Shown here piece after piece: positions 1 through 32,720 of a stretch of 32,720 bases of DNA. The DNA is from a bacterium (GTDB lineage: Bacteria; Vulcanimicrobiota; Xenobia; Xenobiales; JADMJV01): contig JASBRJ010000268.1 in assembly GCA_030149525.1 (NCBI GenBank), positions 1 to 32,720 of the forward strand, read 5' to 3'. Positions within the stretch are counted from its first letter, which is position 1. Each line of letters begins with the position of its first letter. Position numbers and translations under genes: made by a program. Under the pieces are notes generated by a model. That model was not told where the DNA came from. It saw nothing but the letters and a program-made list of their open reading frames with translations, and made no database searches.

Positions 1-1880
1 GGATGAGGCTTGACTGTCAGCGCCTCATCTATGATCCTGCCAGCGGTTTAGTGACAGCCGAGAAGGAGTGTCTTTTCTCCTGGGGAGACAATTTCGCCGC
101 TTCCGACACGCTGATTCTCGATGTGAACGCGAAAACCGCCGAGTTGACTCACGCCGCAGGCAAGAGTGAAGGCCTTTCGGCGGGGAGCAAATCGTTCGAA
201 GGCAGTCTCTATTTTTGGGCGGATAAAATGTACTACACCGAGGAGAGCGTGAAGCTTGATCGGGCTGTTCTGACGACTTGTGACGTTGAGGCCAACGATC
301 TCCATTACAAGATCAACTCCGAAGAGGTCACTCTCTATCCGGATGATAAGGTGATCGCAAAGAACACAAGTTTTACCATCCAGGGCACTCAACTCTACAC
401 CGTGCCGACCGTGGTGGTTCCTCTCGATCAGCAAGAACAACAGCGCCAGTCCTACTTTCCCAGTGTCGGTTACAACAGCCTCGACGGCGCCTTTCTGCGG
501 AACGCTTTCAACTACTCATTTGACCGAGGAAACTACGGCTCAGCCCATGTCGACGTCTATCAGCGCTCCGGTATAGGCTATGGAATCGAGCATTTTTTCG
601 ACTTTGGAGAATTGGGTGGCGGAAACATCTATTACTACACTCAGAACGGTCAACAGGCGGAAAGAAATCGATTCGAGTTGAGGGCCAACGGAAACTTCAA
701 GATCGACAAATACACGCGACTGGGCGTTTCCTACAACGCCAATCAATTCGAGTTGCCCGGGCAGGTGAGCCCTCTCAACGTCTCCTCAGCCATCAATGTT
801 TCAAGATATGCTCCAGGAAGCGCACTTCAGTTGGGAGCGAACTTTGCCCGGAGCGGCGAAAACGACAACCGAAGCTATCGATTTTACTACGATTTGGAGC
901 TGTCCGACCGCTGGTCGCTTCTGACCAGAGCCGATCTCTCGCACTCTTCGAACGCCATCACTCAAACCAACCGCTACCACTATCTGGGAAGCCTTCGCCA
1001 CAGAGGAGACTTCTTCGAAGGGGATCTTTCCTATGAACGTAGTGGCGGGCAACAGACCTATTTTTTGAATCGAGAGCCTGAGCTGAGTTTGCGGTCTTAT
1101 CCTTTCAAGATAGGATTTCTACCTCTCACAGTTGGCACGAGCTTCGGTATTCTTGAAGAGTCGCCATCCCTGTTTCGCACCGAACGCTACCGTTTCGATC
1201 TTCGAGTGCCAGAGCAAACTATCGAAACCGGCATGGGGAATTTTCACGCAGGCGGGGGCATCCGCCAGCAACTCTACGGGAGTGGGCAGCAACAGTACGT
1301 TCTGGGAACCCGTTTGGGTTGGACCCACGATATGGCCGATCACATGCTGTTTCGGTTTGACTATAATTGGCAGGACAGTCACGGCTTCACTCCCTTTCAG
1401 CATGATGTTGCCTACGGCTATCAGGTCTTGAGTGGGGGCGTCGAAGTCTACAACAACGATCTTTTCCGCATCTCTGCGACCGGTGCTTACGACCTCAATT
1501 ACAGCGCCTCTTACGATGTGATCACTCGCCTTGACGTCAATCCTATACCCGGTTGGGAACTGACGGCAGCGGCGACACTGGATCCCAATACCGGCAATTG
1601 GAGGACAGTGGATTCAGGGGTCACGGCCCAATTGACAGACGGCATCTCCCTGACCCATTGGAGTCTCTACGATCTCAACAACGGCCGAATGACTTATCAA
1701 AACTTCTCGGTCAACTACGAAGATCACGACTGGGTAGGGAGCGTAACCTATCGTGGAGTGCAGAATGAGATCTTTTTTCAGATGAGCCTGAAGGCGTTCC
1801 CGCTCCGCCCGATCAAGGTCGGTCCCGACCCAAGTTTGCCCATCTTACCGGCCAACCTGAGTAACGCTTTCACACGCTAG
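1..1880 (+). CDS. lptD: LptD-like LPS-assembly outer-membrane protein, 5' end missing
   Basis: LptD is the outer-membrane beta-barrel that inserts lipopolysaccharide into the outer leaflet, working with LptE and receiving LPS from the periplasmic LptA/LptC bridge. The visible 625 residues begin inside the N-terminal OstA/LptA-like jelly-roll: a segment around residues 90-140 (LTTCD, then the V-T-L-Y-P and V-I-A-K-N stretches and a V-P-T/V-V-V-P stretch) matches the usual LptD junction between the periplasmic domain and the barrel. The remainder is rich in alternating aromatic/polar strands typical of a barrel. The frame is open to the window edge, so the Met at base 3 is probably internal and the true start lies upstream. 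The gene ends 15 bases from an opposing lipoprotein gene. The C-terminus ends in FTR rather than an aromatic residue, which is slightly unusual. The family call rests on remembered features, not a search. Confidence 0.82.
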   Translation, partial: MRLDCQRLIYDPASGLVTAEKECLFSWGDNFAASDTLILDVNAKTAELTHAAGKSEGLSAGSKSFEGSLYFWADKMYYTEESVKLDRAVLTTCDVEANDLHYKINSEEVTLYPDDKVIAKNTSFTIQGTQLYTVPTVVVPLDQQEQQRQSYFPSVGYNSLDGAFLRNAFNYSFDRGNYGSAHVDVYQRSGIGYGIEHFFDFGELGGGNIYYYTQNGQQAERNRFELRANGNFKIDKYTRLGVSYNANQFELPGQVSPLNVSSAINVSRYAPGSALQLGANFARSGENDNRSYRFYYDLELSDRWSLLTRADLSHSSNAITQTNRYHYLGSLRHRGDFFEGDLSYERSGGQQTYFLNREPELSLRSYPFKIGFLPLTVGTSFGILEESPSLFRTERYRFDLRVPEQTIETGMGNFHAGGGIRQQLYGSGQQQYVLGTRLGWTHDMADHMLFRFDYNWQDSHGFTPFQHDVAYGYQVLSGGVEVYNNDLFRISATGAYDLNYSASYDVITRLDVNPIPGWELTAAATLDPNTGNWRTVDSGVTAQLTDGISLTHWSLYDLNNGRMTYQNFSVNYEDHDWVGSVTYRGVQNEIFFQMSLKAFPLRPIKVGPDPSLPILPANLSNAFTR

Positions 1881-1895
1881 AAGCCCTCGTTCTTT

Positions 1896-2630
1896 TTACC
1901 GTGCGGTGACTTCGAATCGCACGATGTCGAAATTCAGATAAGGGAAGTCCGACGGGAGATCGGAGTGAGTGACCATATCGTTGAGAGGGTCGAAGGGATA
2001 GCTCTGAGGGATCGGCTGGGTTGTTCCCTCACCTCGTCTTACGGTCAGGGTCTGCAGGCTGTTGGAGTTGATGTTGGGACCCTGACCCAGAGTGTCCAGA
2101 ATTCGCCCGAGGAACGCCCCACCTTGAGTGTCGGTCGTCACCACATGGGCGGTGAAGACATCGGCGGGGATGAACTGATTGATGAAGCTTGTAGATTCGC
2201 CGATATCCACGATAATTTGAATCGTTTTTCCATCGGGGGAGACTCGAGACTGACCGGAGAGCGGCCCCACCTGGGCAAAGGTGAATCCAGGATTGGGCAC
2301 ACCGGCGAGCCTGTGGTACCAGGAAAAGCTTTGTCCGTCGAATCGGATAAGGTCGGTAAAGGTGTCGAAATCGGTGACCTCAATCGGCGTTCCCTGGGCA
2401 TTCAGAAGCACGGCATAGGTCCCCCGGCCGGTTCTATCGACCTGTCCGTTGGGGTTCACGCCGATGGTAAATTCGAGCAAGCGAAGACTGGTCGAAGTGA
2501 AGGTTCCACCATTGCCCAGAGGATCGGTATCGCCGCGATTGACTCCGTCCCCGGCGCTGGCGCAGCCCGCTATAAGCGAAACCACCAGAAGCGCGGGAAG
2601 GAAGAGAACGACTTTGAAGTGTTTAGACAT
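1896..2630 (-). CDS. Hypothetical lipoprotein
   Basis: This 244-aa protein has a lipoprotein signal peptide: a short basic start, a hydrophobic stretch of about 15 residues, and the lipobox L-I-A-G-C with Cys23 as the lipidation site. After it comes a Gly/Asp/Asn-rich linker, then a beta-rich region with no motif I recognise. It should be anchored in a membrane facing the periplasm or cell surface. The gene is convergent with the lptD-like gene (15-base gap) and divergent from the cvpA-like gene, with 88 bases between the two starts. A weak AGGTAG lies five bases before the ATG. Function unknown. A role beside LptD, such as an LptE-like plug, cannot be inferred from position alone because the genes face each other. 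Confidence 0.8.
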   Translation of the reverse strand: MSKHFKVVLFLPALLVVSLIAGCASAGDGVNRGDTDPLGNGGTFTSTSLRLLEFTIGVNPNGQVDRTGRGTYAVLLNAQGTPIEVTDFDTFTDLIRFDGQSFSWYHRLAGVPNPGFTFAQVGPLSGQSRVSPDGKTIQIIVDIGESTSFINQFIPADVFTAHVVTTDTQGGAFLGRILDTLGQGPNINSNSLQTLTVRRGEGTTQPIPQSYPFDPLNDMVTHSDLPSDFPYLNFDIVRFEVTAR

Positions 2631-2718
2631 GGCTTCTACCTACCCAACCTGACGATGGCCAAACTGCGTAGGGAGGAAGGAGATTCGGATCCAGGAACTG
2701 GGGAGCGAGGTACTATCC

Positions 2719-3306
2719 ATGACTTGGCTCGATTTAGCATCTGTTGCGGGATTCTTTTTGCTTGTTTATCTCGCCTCAAAACGAGGTGTCGTCCTTGAGA
2801 TTACTGATATCATTTGTATCGTAGTCGGTGGTCTTTTTGCTTTTCGGTCCTATCGTCCCTTGGCATCCGGGCTGCACAGTTCGATTTTCAAAGGCTTCAG
2901 CATAGGGTTTTTGGAGAAGTTCTGCCTCTTCGGTATTTTTATCCTAAGCTGTATGGTTCTTTTTGCCATCGGTTTGACGATTCAGCGACGAGCTAAAGAA
3001 GAACATGTTCTGGAAAAAGATGTGGATGAAAAGCTAGGCATCTTGGTGGGGCTGTTTAAAGCTGCACTGGTGATCATGCTGTGTGTGGGACTCCTTTTTT
3101 ATAAGGAGGCCTTTCCGGCGAGAGAGATTCGACGCATGAAGCAAGGCCCGGTGGTCTCCAAGATGATTGGGCTTTCCGGCGCTATTAAACCGGTCGTTTA
3201 CATCGTTGCTCCCCAGGACCTGGCCAAAGATTATATGACTTATGGATTGGCTCGTTACAAAGCGCGACCGAAAGAGAAGCCGAAGTCGAAGACCGTGAAA
3301 TCATGA
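2719..3306 (+). CDS. CvpA-family membrane protein
   Basis: A 195-aa integral membrane protein with about four hydrophobic segments (near residues 5-20, 26-45, 60-82 and 108-126). An early segment carries the CvpA-like arrangement of a Lys-Arg-Gly turn followed by a second helix (S-K-R-G-V-V-L-E). CvpA in E. coli is needed for colicin V production and affects envelope stress resistance; its biochemical role is not settled. The C-terminal tail is strongly basic (repeated Lys-Pro/Lys-Ser). The ATG follows a purine-rich GGGGAGCGAGG stretch. The stop overlaps the next gene's start as ATGA, so the two are probably translated together. The family call is moderately sure. Confidence 0.62.
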   Translation: MTWLDLASVAGFFLLVYLASKRGVVLEITDIICIVVGGLFAFRSYRPLASGLHSSIFKGFSIGFLEKFCLFGIFILSCMVLFAIGLTIQRRAKEEHVLEKDVDEKLGILVGLFKAALVIMLCVGLLFYKEAFPAREIRRMKQGPVVSKMIGLSGAIKPVVYIVAPQDLAKDYMTYGLARYKARPKEKPKSKTVKS

Positions 3307-4112
3307 GTGTTCGCCTCCCCATTTTCCTCTTCATTCTCGTCAGTATTCTGCAACCCGCTCTAGCTGAGGACTCAAGCTTCCAACGTTTCGTCAAAACTGA
3401 GAAGCAGATTCTCTCTCATGAGCAACAGCTTTCCAAGATGGCCTCGGCGCTGGAAGAGTGGCTGTCCGGTAGGAGCAAGCGTTCCGTTCTTCTCGAAACA
3501 CTTAAGAAGGTGGAGTCGGCTACCTCACGTCCTCCGTCTCTTCCTGCGATGACTCAGAAGGCGGTAGAGAGTTCCGAGAGGGATATGCTCCGGATGGTGC
3601 GCGAATTTGCCACGAGCAAAGACCCCGACGGGGATGGTCAACGGAGACTTTTCTCAGGAATGAGTCAAACCACGGAGAAGCGCACCCTGGCCTTGCTGTC
3701 CTGGAGGACAGCAACTGTGAAGGAACTCTTGAGCAGGAAGCTGCCCGCCGACCGAGCTTCCCAATTGATCTGGGAAGCGGCCTGGTACCCCATCTGGGCC
3801 GAGGAGGCAAAGTACACCAGGCGTCTGCAAGCCGGACTTCTCGAAGAGGTCACAAGAGATCAAACCGATATTCTCAAGGGATTGCTCGCTCTTCGTGTCC
3901 GGGCCCAAGCGATACCTTGCCCTCCCCGGTTGACCGAGTTGCAAAAGATGAGTTTAGAGCGTCTCACGCTCCTTGCTCGTACGGCCGAACAGTTGCTTCG
4001 TTTGGAAAAAAGGCAGAGTCGAGGGGCTCTCACTCGGGTCCGTCGGCTCAGTCGAAAGTTGTCCGACTTGACCGAGCAATTTCAAAGCAGGCGACTGGAG
4101 TTATTGCCCTAG
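3303..4112 (+). CDS. Exported helical protein of unknown function
   Basis: A 269-aa protein with a classical Sec signal peptide (hydrophobic residues 5-16, likely cleavage after Ala-Leu-Ala at about residue 21). The mature part is almost wholly helical and rich in Arg, Leu, Glu and Gln, with a likely coiled-coil start (residues 25-50) and a basic C-terminal helix bundle (residues 205-265). I recognise no family. It overlaps the preceding cvpA-like gene by four bases (ATGA) and has no good ribosome binding site of its own, so its translation is likely coupled. It probably acts in the periplasm together with the CvpA-like protein. Its stop codon overlaps the stop of the opposing dihydropyrimidinase gene. 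Confidence 0.78.
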   Translation: MSVRLPIFLFILVSILQPALAEDSSFQRFVKTEKQILSHEQQLSKMASALEEWLSGRSKRSVLLETLKKVESATSRPPSLPAMTQKAVESSERDMLRMVREFATSKDPDGDGQRRLFSGMSQTTEKRTLALLSWRTATVKELLSRKLPADRASQLIWEAAWYPIWAEEAKYTRRLQAGLLEEVTRDQTDILKGLLALRVRAQAIPCPPRLTELQKMSLERLTLLARTAEQLLRLEKRQSRGALTRVRRLSRKLSDLTEQFQSRRLELLP

Positions 4113-5503
4113 ATTGGCCCACCCGCGGCCGTACGCCTTAGGAATTTTCCCCGACCTCGGACTCCCTTGAATTCCCCATCTTCAAAAGAGAGATGGCCTC
4201 TTACGAAGACATGGGACGGCCCACCCGACAGAGCGAATCCTTCGTAGACATTGGAATCGCACTTGCTGTGGTGGGTCTGTGCGCTGATAGTGCTATTCTT
4301 TTGCGGGTCGAAGATGACCAGGTCGGCGTCGGAACCGGGGGCGATCACACCTTTCTTGGGGTATAGTCCGAAGAGCTTTGCAGGATTCGTGCAACAGACC
4401 TCAACCCACCGATTTTCTGTAATCTTACCCTTCGCCACCCCGTAGGTGTAGAGTAGGGAGAGACGTTCTTCCAATCCGTTAAGGCCGTTCGGAATTTTGC
4501 GGAAGTCCTCTTTGCCTAAGTCCTTTTGACCGTGAAAGTTGAAGGTCACATGATCGGTGCCTACGGTTTGGACGATTCCGTTGGCCAGAGCCCCCCAGAG
4601 GGCGTCCTGGTCGTGTTTTTTGCGGATGGGCGGACTGAGAACATATTTGGCCCCCTCGAAGTTGGGAAGATCGTAAACCGAATCATCCAGGAGAAGGTAC
4701 TGCGGGCAGGTCTCTCCGTAGCTCTTCCAACCTTTGAGGCGAGCTCGGGACAGCTCTTCCACCGCTTCACGGCATGTCATATGAACGATGTAAGCAGGCT
4801 GGTCCGCCAGTTGACCTAGCTCCAAAATTCGACCGGTGGACTCGCCCTCGGCCACGGGAGGTTGGCACAAAGGGTGGTAGTGGGTGGTGAGCTTGCCCTC
4901 GGAGGCGAACTGGGCGGCTTTGATATTGAGGACATCCCCGTTCACAGCGTGAGCAGTCACCAGGCCGCCCAGCTTCCGGACTGTCTGCATGAGATCGAAA
5001 ATGGCGTCGTCGGGAATCATCAACGCTCCCTTGTAGGCGGTGAAGACTTTGAACGAAGTGATGCCGTGGGCGTGGATCTGCTTGACTTCTTCTTTCACGG
5101 ATTCATCCCAGTGGGTAATCGCCATGTGATAGGAATAGTCACAATAGGCTTTGTTAGCGGCTTTTTCGTCCCACACGGCCAGTGCGTCGGTGAGAGTCTG
5201 ATCTTGAGCAGGAAGACAGAAGTCGATCAGGCTGGTGGTCCCACCGGCCACAGCACACTCGGTGCCGGACTCGTAGTCGTCTTGACTGACGGTTCCCATA
5301 AACGGCATTTCCAGGTGGACATGGACATCGACCGCGCCGGGGAGTAACCATTTCCCACGGGCATTGAACACTTTGTCCACCGAGTCGCGAAAATTCGAAA
5401 GGTCGGTCCCTACGGCGGATATGGTCTCTCCGTCGACCAGGCAATCTCCCACAAAACTTTCGCCGGGGCCAACGATACGCGCGCCCTTGATCAAAAATCT
5501 CAT
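4109..5503 (-). CDS. hydA: Dihydropyrimidinase / D-hydantoinase
   Basis: A 464-aa cyclic amidase of the amidohydrolase superfamily, which opens the ring of dihydropyrimidines or 5-substituted hydantoins in pyrimidine breakdown. The two-metal site is complete: His61 and His63 in D-V-H-V-H, the carboxylated Lys152 in T-S-F-K-V-F, His185 in A-H-A-V-N-G-D, His241 in V-H-M-T, and Asp317 in G-T-D-H. Tyr157 (A-Y-K-G) and the S-P-P-I-R loop are substrate-binding elements of the family. The ATG at 5503 was chosen because homology starts there and a GTGAGG element sits upstream; an open frame runs 351 bases further but would cover the upp leader and upp itself. The gene is divergent from upp, which makes uracil metabolism a shared theme. 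I cannot tell dihydropyrimidinase from hydantoinase by sequence alone. Confidence 0.9.
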
Positions 5504-25044: not shown

Positions 25045-25895
25045 GTCAGAGTGAACAGTGGAAAAACCTGTTCAGAGAGCAAGACTCCACCAGGCTTGCT
25101 CTGCTGGTTCGAGATACGGGCGCCTTCGGTCCTGACAAGGCCGTGCGAGCCCTGGGAGACGACAAAATGCTGCTTCTTGGAGGCGCAAGTCACGCGGCGC
25201 GGCTCTCCAAACGGTCCTCTCAGAGGGAGCCGTCGGAGCCTTTGTGTGTTGTTGTGACGCCTGAAGAAGAGCAGCAAGATTCAGAGTTTCTGGAGGCTGT
25301 GAAGCAGGCCAGAGCCGAGTTCCCCGAGGCCGAATTGGCCGGGTTCGGTCCAAAGAGTTGCTGGCCCCTGCTGGATCGGCTGGTGATGAGAGTCGGGGAA
25401 GTCGGCAAAGATTTCACTCTCGACTCTCAGTGGGACAGTCAAAATCAGGTGGCTCAGAAACTCTCCGCCGTCTTGGTCTACTCTCCCGAGGCGAGTCCCG
25501 AAGCCCTCGAAAAGGCTTGCGAGGCTCTTCTCAGGGCCAAGAATCTCCACGGAGTCGTTGCCTTGCCTCTCGGGGCCGGAGATCGCATTCCGTTGCCTGG
25601 ACTCACCACCGCTGGAACCGTCGACATGATGATTCTCAGCGCGTTGAGGCTTTTGTTGCCCCAGGAGATCAAGGTGCGCGCTTCCTGGGCCGCTTTGGGT
25701 TGGAAGGTAGCCCAACTGGCCGTCATGTACGGCGCCAATGAGTTAGCCGGATGGAGCGCTGCCGAAACCGCGGTCTACAGCGGCCGAGTCAGGGCAGCGG
25801 CTCGAGTCGAAGAAGACGAGCTTTTGCAGGGAATGGCCGAAGCCGGTTGGAGAAGAACCCCGTGGATACCAGGCAAGGTAGGAGTCGAGTTGTGA
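25041..25895 (+). CDS. Unknown protein with an MqnE/MqnC-like C-terminal region, no radical SAM motif
   Basis: A 284-aa protein in the middle of the menaquinone operon, overlapping both neighbours by four bases (ATGA upstream, GTGA downstream). Residues about 188-284 follow the C-terminal part of the radical SAM enzymes MqnE and MqnC: L-S-A-L-R-L-L-L-P, then K-V-R-A-S-W-A-A-L-G-W-K-V-A-Q-L-A-V-M-Y-G-A-N-E-L, then a helix and A-E-A-G-W-R-R-T-P. The N-terminal 185 residues show no CxxxCxxC cluster; its only Cys are at 69, 107 and 160. It therefore cannot bind the 4Fe-4S cluster in the usual way. It may be a remnant, or a non-catalytic partner in futalosine metabolism. The similarity is my own reading and not a search result. 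Confidence 0.72.
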   Translation: MSQSEQWKNLFREQDSTRLALLVRDTGAFGPDKAVRALGDDKMLLLGGASHAARLSKRSSQREPSEPLCVVVTPEEEQQDSEFLEAVKQARAEFPEAELAGFGPKSCWPLLDRLVMRVGEVGKDFTLDSQWDSQNQVAQKLSAVLVYSPEASPEALEKACEALLRAKNLHGVVALPLGAGDRIPLPGLTTAGTVDMMILSALRLLLPQEIKVRASWAALGWKVAQLAVMYGANELAGWSAAETAVYSGRVRAAARVEEDELLQGMAEAGWRRTPWIPGKVGVEL

Positions 25896-26719
25896 GCCAC
25901 CTCAGGTTCGGAGTTCTTCGATACATTAACTGCTTACCCGCCACTATGGCCATTGAAAGAGGCGAAGTCGATCTCTGCGGCTGGGAGGTCCAGAAGGGTA
26001 TCCCGGCCGAGCTCAACGCCCGGATGAGAGCCGGAAGCCTGGATGTTTCTCTGGTCTCAGCTGCCGAGTACCTGGAAAACGAAGAGCACTACCAATTGCT
26101 TGATGAGTTTGGTCAATGGTGTCTCGGTCCGGTGGAGAGTGTTTGTCTGTTTTCGCCACGGAGCCGTCGTCAGCTCACCGACTTGCCTCAATGCGTGGTG
26201 GGCGTAACTCCGGAAAGCGCCACTTCGGTTGCGCTGACCGGATTGCTCTTGCCCAACGCGCGTACCGAAGTCTTTGCTTCCCTGGAATCGGCGGAAGTCG
26301 GCCTTAATCAGGACAGATTCCAAGCCGTTCTCCTCATTGGAGACAAGGCTCTGTCTCCGCCGGAATGGACCAGGGATTTGCAAGTTCACGACCTGAGTGA
26401 GTGGTGGAACGATGTGACCGGTTATCCTATGACCTTTGCCGTGTGGGTGGCTCGCAAAGATCTGCCTCCGTCGGAGGTGAATCGAGCTCGAAGCCTTTTG
26501 AAAGCATCGCTTGCCTGGGGGTCCGAGCACAACGACGACGTTGTGGCCGAGGGAGCCCGCCGCTCCGGACTCAGTGAGGCTCGAATTAGGAGCTACCTCG
26601 AAAATCTCAACTTTCTCACCACCGAAGAGTCCCGGCCTGGATTTTTGGAGTTCCGCACGCGCCTCAGGCAACGCCGTATCTTCGGTGTTCCCCCCGTAAC
26701 CACCGGGCTTTGCCTGTGA
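25892..26719 (+). CDS. mqnA: Chorismate dehydratase MqnA
   Basis: A 275-aa protein with the periplasmic-binding-protein-like fold of MqnA, which removes water from chorismate to make 3-enolpyruvylbenzoate, the first committed step of the futalosine menaquinone pathway. Visible family features: the start F-G-V-L-R-Y-I-N-C-L-P, the L-D-V-S-L-V-S-A-A-E-Y segment (about residues 50-60), L-L-I-G-D-K-A-L (about 147-154), and the late L-S-E-W-W-N-D-V-T-G-Y-P-M-T-F-A-V-W pattern that marks MqnA/MqnD. The GTG at 25892 overlaps the preceding stop (GTGA) and has GGAG seven bases upstream; an earlier ATG at 25751 would lie inside the previous gene. Confidence 0.92.
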   Translation: MSHLRFGVLRYINCLPATMAIERGEVDLCGWEVQKGIPAELNARMRAGSLDVSLVSAAEYLENEEHYQLLDEFGQWCLGPVESVCLFSPRSRRQLTDLPQCVVGVTPESATSVALTGLLLPNARTEVFASLESAEVGLNQDRFQAVLLIGDKALSPPEWTRDLQVHDLSEWWNDVTGYPMTFAVWVARKDLPPSEVNRARSLLKASLAWGSEHNDDVVAEGARRSGLSEARIRSYLENLNFLTTEESRPGFLEFRTRLRQRRIFGVPPVTTGLCL

Positions 26720-26728
26720 TTGGAGAAG

Positions 26729-27817
26729 ATGATTAAGATGTCTGTAAGCAGTACCAAGATTCGGGACCTTCGGGTCAAAACATCGCGACCTCGTCTGACT
26801 CAAGAAGAGGGACTGGCCCTCTTCGACGCCGATCTTTTGGATTTGGCTCGTCAAGCCGACGAAGTCCGACGAGAGCTTCACCCCGAGGGTTACGTCACTT
26901 TCATTCGTGATCGCATTATCAACTACACAAATGTATGCATCACCTATTGCAAATTCTGCGCCTTCTATCGACCTCCCGGGCACCCGGAGAGCTATGTGCG
27001 CTCAAAAGAAGAGATCTTTTCCAAGGTGGAGGAGATGCTGGAGCGAGGCGGCACCACCCTCATGCTGCAAGGGGGGCACAACCCCGAGCTGAAGATCGAT
27101 TACTACGAAGATCTTTTCAGTTCCATCAAGCAACGCTTTGATGTCTACCTTCACAGTCTCACGGCAACCGAGGTGGATCATATGGCCGAAGTCAGCGGCC
27201 TTTCACTGGAGGAGACCCTGACTCGCCTCAAGCAAGCCGGCCTGGATAGTCTCCCGGGCGGTGGAGCCGAGATGCTGGTGGACGACATCCGAGACAAGGT
27301 CGCTCCTCTGAAAACTTCGGCCGACCGCTGGTTTGAGGTTCACGAAACCGCTCACAAGGTTGGCATCGAATCCACGGCTACCATGGTGTTTGGTTTTGGA
27401 GAAACCGATCGCCACCGTATCGAACATCTGGAGCGACTTCGAGCCCTGCAAGACCGCACGGGAGGGTTCCGGTCTTTCATTCACTGGAGTCTCACACCTG
27501 GTAACAGCGGAATGATGAGAACGATTCCACCTGCCGGCGCCGAGTATCTCAGAATAATGGCTATCGCTCGACTGTATCTCGACAACTTCAGCCACATTCA
27601 CGCCGGTTGGGTGACCGAGGGGGCCAAGTTAGCCCAACTGGCTCTTCAATACGGGGCCGACGACCTGGGCAGTGTGCTCATGGAAGAGTTGGTCATTTCC
27701 GCCACCGGCGTCGCCTACGCCTACAACGCCGAGCAGATAGCCGCCATGATTCGCTCCGTCGGCCGCATCCCGGCTATTCGAAACTCCAAGTATGAGATTT
27801 TGAAAGTCCTTGACTGA
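26729..27817 (+). CDS. mqnC: Cyclic dehypoxanthinyl futalosine synthase MqnC
   Basis: A 362-aa radical SAM enzyme that cyclises dehypoxanthine futalosine. The 4Fe-4S motif is C70-I-T-Y-C74-K-F-C77, preceded by I-N-Y-T-N-V, and followed by A-F-Y-R. Other family blocks: M-L-Q-G-G-H-N-P (about residues 112-119), A-G-L-D-S-L-P-G-G-G-A-E (about 169-180), F-G-F-G-E-T and H-A-G-W-V-T-E-G-x-K-L-A-Q-L-A-L-Q-Y-G-A-D-D-L-G near the end. This last form favours MqnC over MqnE. Three starts are possible (TTG 26720, ATG 26729, ATG 26738); GGAG sits just before the middle one, which I use. It lies nine bases behind mqnA and overlaps the following methyltransferase gene if that starts at TTG 27810. Confidence 0.94.
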   Translation: MIKMSVSSTKIRDLRVKTSRPRLTQEEGLALFDADLLDLARQADEVRRELHPEGYVTFIRDRIINYTNVCITYCKFCAFYRPPGHPESYVRSKEEIFSKVEEMLERGGTTLMLQGGHNPELKIDYYEDLFSSIKQRFDVYLHSLTATEVDHMAEVSGLSLEETLTRLKQAGLDSLPGGGAEMLVDDIRDKVAPLKTSADRWFEVHETAHKVGIESTATMVFGFGETDRHRIEHLERLRALQDRTGGFRSFIHWSLTPGNSGMMRTIPPAGAEYLRIMAIARLYLDNFSHIHAGWVTEGAKLAQLALQYGADDLGSVLMEELVISATGVAYAYNAEQIAAMIRSVGRIPAIRNSKYEILKVLD

Positions 27818-28571
27818 ACCGGTGTCTCCTCAAACCCCAGCACCTCTCAGGGTTGAAGAGCCCCAACAGCGAGCAGACCTGGTCCGTCAGATGTTCGACC
27901 GGGTCTGTAACCGCTATGAGCTAAACAATCTTCTGTTATCTTTCGGTATGGATGCTTATTGGCGGTGGCGGGCGCGCAAAGAACTTCGGCTCGGACCCGC
28001 CGACCGGATCGTCGATCTCTGTTGTGGAACAGGCGCGGTGACTCGTTGTCTTGCCGGAGCCGTTCCCCAGGGCGAAGTGGTAGGGGTCGATTTCTCGGCC
28101 GGCATGTTGGAACCGGCCAGGACCCGTGGTGGTCCGGCAGGTGGTGGGAAGGTTCGCTACATCCAGAGTGATGTGTTGCAGGTTCCTTTGCCCGACCATT
28201 CCTTCGATGCCGTCACGATTTGCTATGGTCCCCGAAACATCGTGGATCTTCCCGCTTTATGGAAAGAGATGAGACGGCTGGTCAAGCCGGGGGGGCAGGT
28301 GCTCAGTTTGGAGTTGACCCGCCCTAAGGGCCTTTTAGGATTCTTTCATGAGATCTACCTTAACACCATCGTCCCCTTTCTCGGGGGATTGGTATCGGGG
28401 GACCGAGAGGCCTACAATTACCTCAGCAAAACCATTTCGGGTTTTTTGGCCCCTGAAGAGCTCGCTCGCTCCATGTCTGCAAGTGGACTCAAGAAAGTCC
28501 GCTTTATTCCGTTGAGCGGCGGCATTGTCACGATTCATCACGCCTTCACTCCCGTTGACCAGGAGGATTGA
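27810..28571 (+). CDS. menG: Demethylmenaquinone methyltransferase (UbiE/MenG)
   Basis: A 253-aa class I SAM-dependent methyltransferase that adds the ring methyl group in the last step of menaquinone synthesis. Features: the UbiE signature around residues 35-53 (N-R-Y-E-L-N-N-x3-S-F-G-M-D-x3-W), the SAM loop V-D-L-C-C-G-T-G-A (68-76), G-V-D-F-S-x-G-M-L (94-102), C-Y-G-P-R-N and the late Y-N-Y-L-x-x-T-I. The start is either TTG 27810, overlapping mqnC by eight bases, or GTG 27822, just after it; neither has a clear ribosome binding site. It is the last gene of the menaquinone operon. The hairpin CATTCC-CCA-GGAATG at 28577-28591 follows the stop, but without a T-run. Confidence 0.92.
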   Translation: MTEPVSPQTPAPLRVEEPQQRADLVRQMFDRVCNRYELNNLLLSFGMDAYWRWRARKELRLGPADRIVDLCCGTGAVTRCLAGAVPQGEVVGVDFSAGMLEPARTRGGPAGGGKVRYIQSDVLQVPLPDHSFDAVTICYGPRNIVDLPALWKEMRRLVKPGGQVLSLELTRPKGLLGFFHEIYLNTIVPFLGGLVSGDREAYNYLSKTISGFLAPEELARSMSASGLKKVRFIPLSGGIVTIHHAFTPVDQED

Positions 28572-32044: not shown

Positions 32045-32051
32045 GATGAAC

Positions 32052-32585
32052 GTGACCACATTTCAGTTCGATCAAGACTTAGAGAACAAATTCGTGAGTC
32101 TGGTAGAGGAGAGTTGGAAACGATACGACGACATCGAGCGCAACAGTTGGCTGGACGATGTTTTCGTAGGGGCTTCCATCACAGCCCACCTGGACAACGG
32201 GATGTTTCTCCTCGATGCCACGTCCGACGGCAAGAGCCACTACTTCGTTTTTGCCGATCAGGAACGCAACCGTAACGTTCTCAAAGTGGACCACCGCCGG
32301 GGTGAAGACTATCTCTACTCGAAGACTGTGGGACACCTGACCGCAGTCACCCTGGCCGTGGGGCGAGCTTATCCCGATCTGAAGAAACTTTTCAAAGCAG
32401 CGCGTTCCGAGGTCCAAAGTGGTATGGCCGGTGAGGGGCGAATTGCCGGATATGAAGACCCGGGAGTTATGAAGGTCGACCGTGAGGGAAGTATCGCCAC
32501 CTGCGAAACCACTCTCCTTCTCGACCTCAACGACTACGTGAGGATCGAAGACCTGAGCGTAGACCGGGAAAAGCTTTGGATGTAA
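32052..32585 (+). CDS. Hypothetical protein, perhaps cut short by an insertion sequence
   Basis: A 177-aa soluble protein with no signal peptide and no family I recognise; acidic N-terminal helix, then mixed alpha/beta. It may start at ATG 32046 or, better spaced from GGAGG, at GTG 32052 (seven bases). It follows the aspartoacylase-like gene on the same strand behind a hairpin that hides the ribosome binding site. The stop TAA at 32583-32585 is part of the putative IS66 end GTAAGCG, so the original C-terminus may have been different or longer. Confidence 0.7.
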   Translation: MTTFQFDQDLENKFVSLVEESWKRYDDIERNSWLDDVFVGASITAHLDNGMFLLDATSDGKSHYFVFADQERNRNVLKVDHRRGEDYLYSKTVGHLTAVTLAVGRAYPDLKKLFKAARSEVQSGMAGEGRIAGYEDPGVMKVDREGSIATCETTLLLDLNDYVRIEDLSVDREKLWM

Positions 32586-32720
32586 GCGATGTTCCGCTCC
32601 CTATCCGCCACCCGTTCCGACCCCCTACCCTATGACGAGATAGGAGGTCGTAATGACAAAGATAGTACCAGCGAAGGAGCCAGACTGGCAACGTCTCTCG
32701 AAAGAGTGGGAGTGCAGTGG
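32582..32720 (+). mobile_element. Putative left end of an IS66-family insertion sequence
   Basis: IS66 elements have terminal inverted repeats that begin GTAA (often GTAAGCG) and a short noncoding lead before the first small gene. Here GTAAGCG begins at 32582, the lead is about 70 bases, and an ATG with a strong AGGAGGT follows at 32653, whose first codons resemble the IS66 accessory protein. Only this end is visible, so the right repeat and the 8-bp target duplication cannot be checked. Confidence 0.5.
32653..32720 (+). CDS. Start of an IS66 TnpA-like accessory protein, runs off the window
   Basis: Only 22 codons are visible. After a short start the reading gives W-Q-R-L-S-K-E-W-E-C-S-G, close to the E-W-x-x-L-x-x-E-W-x-x-S-G opening of IS66 accessory proteins (TnpA/OrfA), which usually continues with a small helix-turn-helix region. 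AGGAGGT lies four bases before the ATG, one of the best ribosome binding sites in the window. The match is short, so the call is tentative. Confidence 0.5.
   Translation, partial: MTKIVPAKEPDWQRLSKEWECS

Follow-up and report, generated by a model that had tools for sequence, protein, structure and literature searches.

A gene that ends close to the edge of a contig raises the question of whether its stop codon is its own. The window (the whole stretch of 32,720 nucleotides that was analysed) is the entire contig C111 of a draft genome, G000, of 8.27 Mb in 398 contigs. Close to its right-hand edge, positions 32571–32588 read AAG CTT TGG ATG TAA GCG, as the first-pass annotation had it, and the stop of the frame is the TAA at 32583–32585. 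That annotation proposed that an insertion sequence has cut the gene and that the first bases of the element make the stop codon; the proposal is borne out by the right flank, the target duplication and the empty site described below. It also placed the gene at 32052. The frame is real, but 32052 is a GTG and the frame opens six bases earlier, at the ATG of 32046. The features of the region are as follows.

32046–32585, plus strand: the cut host gene; 178 host codons, then a Met codon completed by the element and TAA.
32574–32581, plus strand: left copy of the 8-bp target duplication CTTTGGAT; the right copy lies directly after the right end on contig C60.
32582–32720, plus strand: left end of the insertion sequence, to the contig end; present at 7 places in its own genome with one breakpoint.
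32582–32600, plus strand: left terminal repeat; its first 12 bases equal those of the right end, its extent was judged by eye.
32583–32585, plus strand: TAA stop codon, wholly within the element.
32642–32648, plus strand: AGGAGGT, like a ribosome-binding site, before the tnpA-like start; read from the sequence.
32653–32720, plus strand: first codons of a tnpA-like frame that the contig end interrupts; a weak profile match.

From 32582 to its end, a stretch of 139 bases, the window is occupied by the left end of a multicopy insertion sequence. This left end is found at seven contig ends of the genome, at 100% identity over 138–140 bases each, and the seven copies have seven different flanks, each broken exactly before GTAAGCG. 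Contigs that end about one word length inside an element are, we infer, the usual result of short-read assembly across a multicopy element. With at least seven near-identical copies, the element has probably been active recently. The left end has eleven other matches in the same genome, all of them short, with E 0.003 to 6.5, which we attribute to chance.

The right end was reached through the neighbour of the host gene. In G003, which belongs to the same family, a second gene comes after the homologue of the 32046 gene; this second gene has a match in G000, at 52% identity, that begins at base 225 of contig C60. The first 140 bases of C60 end in GGAGCCGAAACATCGCTTAC, and then come CTTTGGAT and TCACTTTCAGGCGACC onward to a TAG; CTTTGGAT is followed by the final 18 codons of the host gene and by the neighbour gene. 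The right-hand repeat, suggested earlier as a check, is therefore present on C60, and with the end of this contig as query seven right ends were found in the genome, six with 138–141 element bases and one, C258, with 38. Read inward, the right end is GTAAGCGATGTTTCGGCTCC. Both ends of the element start GTAAGCGATGTT, so that the terminal inverted repeats begin with GTAAGCG as in the IS66 family; by eye, a single substitution and one inserted base separate them over the first 20 columns. It is because of these two differences that an 18-base pattern search with up to three mismatches did not reveal the right end.

Left and right ends can be paired by the eight bases that flank them. Exact repeats of eight bases, and not longer, join C111 to C60, C349 to C374, C212 to C234, C62 to C258 and C107 to C375. 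The target duplication that the first-pass annotation had proposed to look for, of the 8-bp length used as a mark of the IS66 family, is thus seen as an exact match for five of the seven left ends, against 0.0007 exact pairs expected by chance among the 49 (7 × 7) combinations. The C62–C258 pair is confirmed independently by a split AlkZ-like glycosylase gene, the two pieces of which cover profile positions 1–259 on C258 and 261–328 on C62. The left ends on C63 and C165 and the right ends on C54 and C48 have no partner, perhaps because contigs are missing, the sites were rearranged later or the duplications have changed. An 8-base inverted match noticed by eye between the partnerless flanks of C63 and C54 was not borne out by alignment.

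When the element and one copy of the duplication are deleted and the flanks rejoined, the empty site is a single frame of 197 codons. Matches to the window protein occur in 5 of 58 genomes searched (its own genome counted in both numbers). Residues 2–197 of the 197-residue rejoined protein align with 3–194 of 194 in the G003 homologue at 46% identity, reaching the last residue of both proteins, and the other alignments extend to residue 194 (G006), 197 (G033) and 196 (G017) of the rejoined protein. Since the empty-site protein aligns to the last residue of its relative, the frame has been cut after codon 178. The gene is longer in all four relatives with a homologue, as it is in the rejoined flanks, and none of the four homologues ends at residue 179 as a naturally short protein would; the window protein therefore lacks 19 residues and carries one extra Met. 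The window protein has no Pfam match (E ≤ 1) and no NCBIfam match (E ≤ 10), and the G003 homologue has Pfam and NCBIfam matches below threshold only. In G003 (L034, 1609–3294) the homologue is the first of three genes in a row, the other two encoding proteins of about 165–205 residues; between the third gene and the homologue there is a weak match (34% over 65 residues), a hint of a tandem family.

Taken together, a multicopy IS66-type insertion sequence has very probably jumped into the gene for this 197-residue protein, towards its 3′ end, duplicating the eight target bases CTTTGGAT and cutting the frame. The cut after codon 178 left two host bases, AT, in a split codon. Base 1 of the element completes an ATG, and its next three bases are TAA. 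The repeat begins at 32582, so the A and T of this ATG are host bases and the following G, T, A and A belong to the element; with a new ATG followed by TAA, the gene encodes 179 residues, the last 19 having been lost and one Met gained. The truncated protein is presumably made, with its function reduced.

Whether an element of this kind closes a frame at once depends on the phase of insertion. If the split codon retains two host bases, TAA falls at element bases 2–4 whichever end is entered. With no host base, the first stop is complete at base 54 (left end) or 96 (right end); with one, at base 62 or 23, respectively. Among the paired sites, C349–C374 interrupts no frame of at least 90 codons, and the other four interrupt frames of 197, 245, 374 and 804 codons. 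An immediate TAA is met at C111–C60 (left end), C107–C375 (right end) and C212–C234 (right end, after 19 codons); the C62–C258 frame would stop at base 96, judged from the right end of other copies, and for the partnerless C63 and C165 the stop comes at base 62. The frame on C63 is perhaps no gene. An immediate stop is therefore found in three of six interrupted frames, against one third expected; this count leaves out a 62-codon frame on C212, antisense to the 245-codon one and with its stop at base 54, the inclusion of which gives three of seven. Chance allows such a count, and no preference for an immediate stop can be claimed from it. It is, in our judgement, very unlikely that IS66-type elements, through their GTAA terminus, bring immediate closure to host frames at a rate above chance; if true, such closure, seen here at both element ends, would spare the cell long fusion proteins. 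A limited literature search found no statement that an element end supplies the stop codon for IS66, and the accessible text of PMC3196728 and PMC3498117 holds no description of a stop codon supplied by the end of an element. As for the genes at the other sites, the C107/C375 copy interrupts a frame with a sulfatase domain, the C62/C258 copy an AlkZ-like DNA glycosylase gene, and the C165 copy ends a frame with an S-layer homology domain.

GTAAGCG was regarded in the first-pass annotation as the usual start of an IS66-type repeat. Both ends of the element carry it. According to the accessible text of PMC11946415, IS66 terminal repeats are 20–30 bp long and start with GTAAGCG. As a control, inverted ends and flanking 8-bp repeats were sought around 17 IS66 transposase genes (seven plasmid references, nine elements of relatives and C323 of the same genome). 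GTAAGCG was found at both ends in 4 of the 17, three of which also have exact 8-bp repeats (ISPpu14, ISEc23 and G012:C325); the fourth, ISKpn24, is without a repeat in the copy examined. A Bradyrhizobium element has GTAACCG ends and an exact repeat, G013:C374 has GTAACCG ends and a repeat matching at 7 of 8 bases, and exact repeats also flank the Thiodictyon (GTGTCC ends) and C323 (GTGTGC ends) elements. The remaining 9 of 17, among them fragments and elements interrupted by a contig end, showed no convincing end pair. Those control elements that are complete measure 2.4–3.2 kb. GTAAGCG is thus common in IS66, though not universal.

The window element resembles ISPpu14 (L122), ISEc23 (L124) and ISKpn24 (L121) in having GTAAGCG at both ends, and shares an exact 8-bp duplication with the first two, unlike the ISKpn24 copy. 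In these three elements tnpA starts 80–100 bases from the left end, and the weakly scored tnpA-like start of the window would lie near the left end too; their TnpAs are of another type with no similarity to the 23-residue start in the window, and their interiors are known, whereas the window element is seen by its ends alone. Another parallel is G012:C325 (L111), from the same order, which has GTAAGCG ends and an 8-bp duplication (TCTCGTCG), and whose TnpA, a member of NCBIfam NF047593, has a DW...SG start like that in the window; its repeats, unlike those of the window element, read GTAAGCGGTGCC. In G012, TnpA, TnpB and TnpC score above the cut-offs of the NCBIfam models for IS66 (NF047593, NF033819 and NF033517). 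The insertions in pyrF of Frankia casuarinae are likewise similar: in the accessible text of PMC11946415, two new IS66 insertions disrupt this gene, with 8-bp direct repeats and the GTAAGCG start. There, transposition was observed in mutants, and the same text makes no mention of a stop codon supplied by the element. A second IS66-type element in G000, on C323 (L031, about 1644–4199, minus strand), is apparently complete at about 2556 bp; its ends, GTGTGCTTTCCGCAAATG, match at 18 of 18 bases, its 8-bp duplication is TTTCAAAA, and its tnpB and tnpC score above the NCBIfam cut-offs.

The TnpA-like start claimed 70 bases into the element begins with an ATG at 32653, 71 bases after the first base; its likeness to TnpA consists in a weak profile score. 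The frame encodes 22–23 residues (MTKIVPAKEPDWQRLSKEWECS) before it runs off the contig. Against a profile built from 13 reference TnpA proteins (G012 and 12 plasmid proteins) it scores 5.8 bits, a weak match aligned over DWQRLSKEWECSG; of 2000 shuffles of it, 1717 were reported by the program and 11 scored as high, the best reaching 10.0. No signal emerged from pairwise comparison with four reference TnpAs of other types, where between 113 and 872 of 1000 shuffles scored as high, and the start has no Pfam or NCBIfam family match and no match in plasmids. Of the 13 reference tnpA genes, 8 have GTAAGC at 80–94 bases ahead of their annotated start (six times as GTAAGCG, twice as GTAAGCA), compared with 71 in the window.

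The interior of the element was not found in its own assembly with either the left- or the right-end query. The only PF05717 (tnpB) match in the genome lies in another element, C323, and its three PF03050 (IS66-type transposase, tnpC) matches lie in C323, C250 and C118. The last 141 bases of the right end hold a 39-codon frame, open to 20 bases before the end (e.g. L060/L062), for which neither TnpC ends nor Pfam families offer a counterpart; it is perhaps non-coding, or else a piece of a passenger gene. At E ≤ 1 this frame has matches in 48 of 147 genomes of the phylum, G000 included; the best outside match (G086, E 0.003) falls within a repeat protein and was rejected as chance, and a single plasmid match (E 6) was of no use. 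Element DNA has no match in 72,556 plasmid records, and across 148 other genomes of the phylum the left end has a single DNA match, of 25 bases (G074). The exact left repeat was absent from genome_contigs. Its degenerate form occurs in 16 stretches there and in 6 in viral_contigs; all 22 were taken as chance, because tblastn with four kinds of query (the IS66 proteins of C323 and of C118, the TnpA-like start, the right-end frame) yielded just one match at E ≤ 0.1, with E 0.047.

These results leave some room for a real insertion sequence with 8-bp duplications that belongs to another family with GTAAGCG ends, or is a non-autonomous derivative moved by an IS66 transposase. The elusive interior, the short and weakly scored TnpA-like start and the lack of a useful match for the right-end frame would all fit such an element. 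The GTAAGCG ends and the 8-bp duplication nevertheless speak for IS66 itself, as does a TnpA-like start at 71 bases, given the spacing in 8 of 13 references, and we consider the other origin unlikely. Far less credible still, and almost certainly wrong, is the notion that the gene ends naturally at residue 179 with a repeat at its stop by coincidence, or that the contig ends are assembly artefacts. All copies do lie at contig ends, a pattern that a collapsed repeat would give, as would some artefacts, but five exact paired duplications, the missing end of the gene on C60, the empty site and the further extent of all four homologues contradict it. Insertion by an IS66-type element thus remains the preferred reading; membership of the IS66 family is likely, and the missing interior would presumably encode an IS66-type transposase.

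The insertion event is real but ordinary. It matters in that a truncated gene at a contig end looks complete: automatic annotation would log a protein of 179 residues and take its stop to be natural. The large genome of a thinly sampled group also gains an IS66-like element. Elsewhere in the window, at 25751–28571, three adjacent genes match PF02621 (menaquinone biosynthesis), CofH/MqnC C-terminal plus radical SAM, and UbiE methyltransferase; together they resemble a futalosine-type menaquinone cluster.
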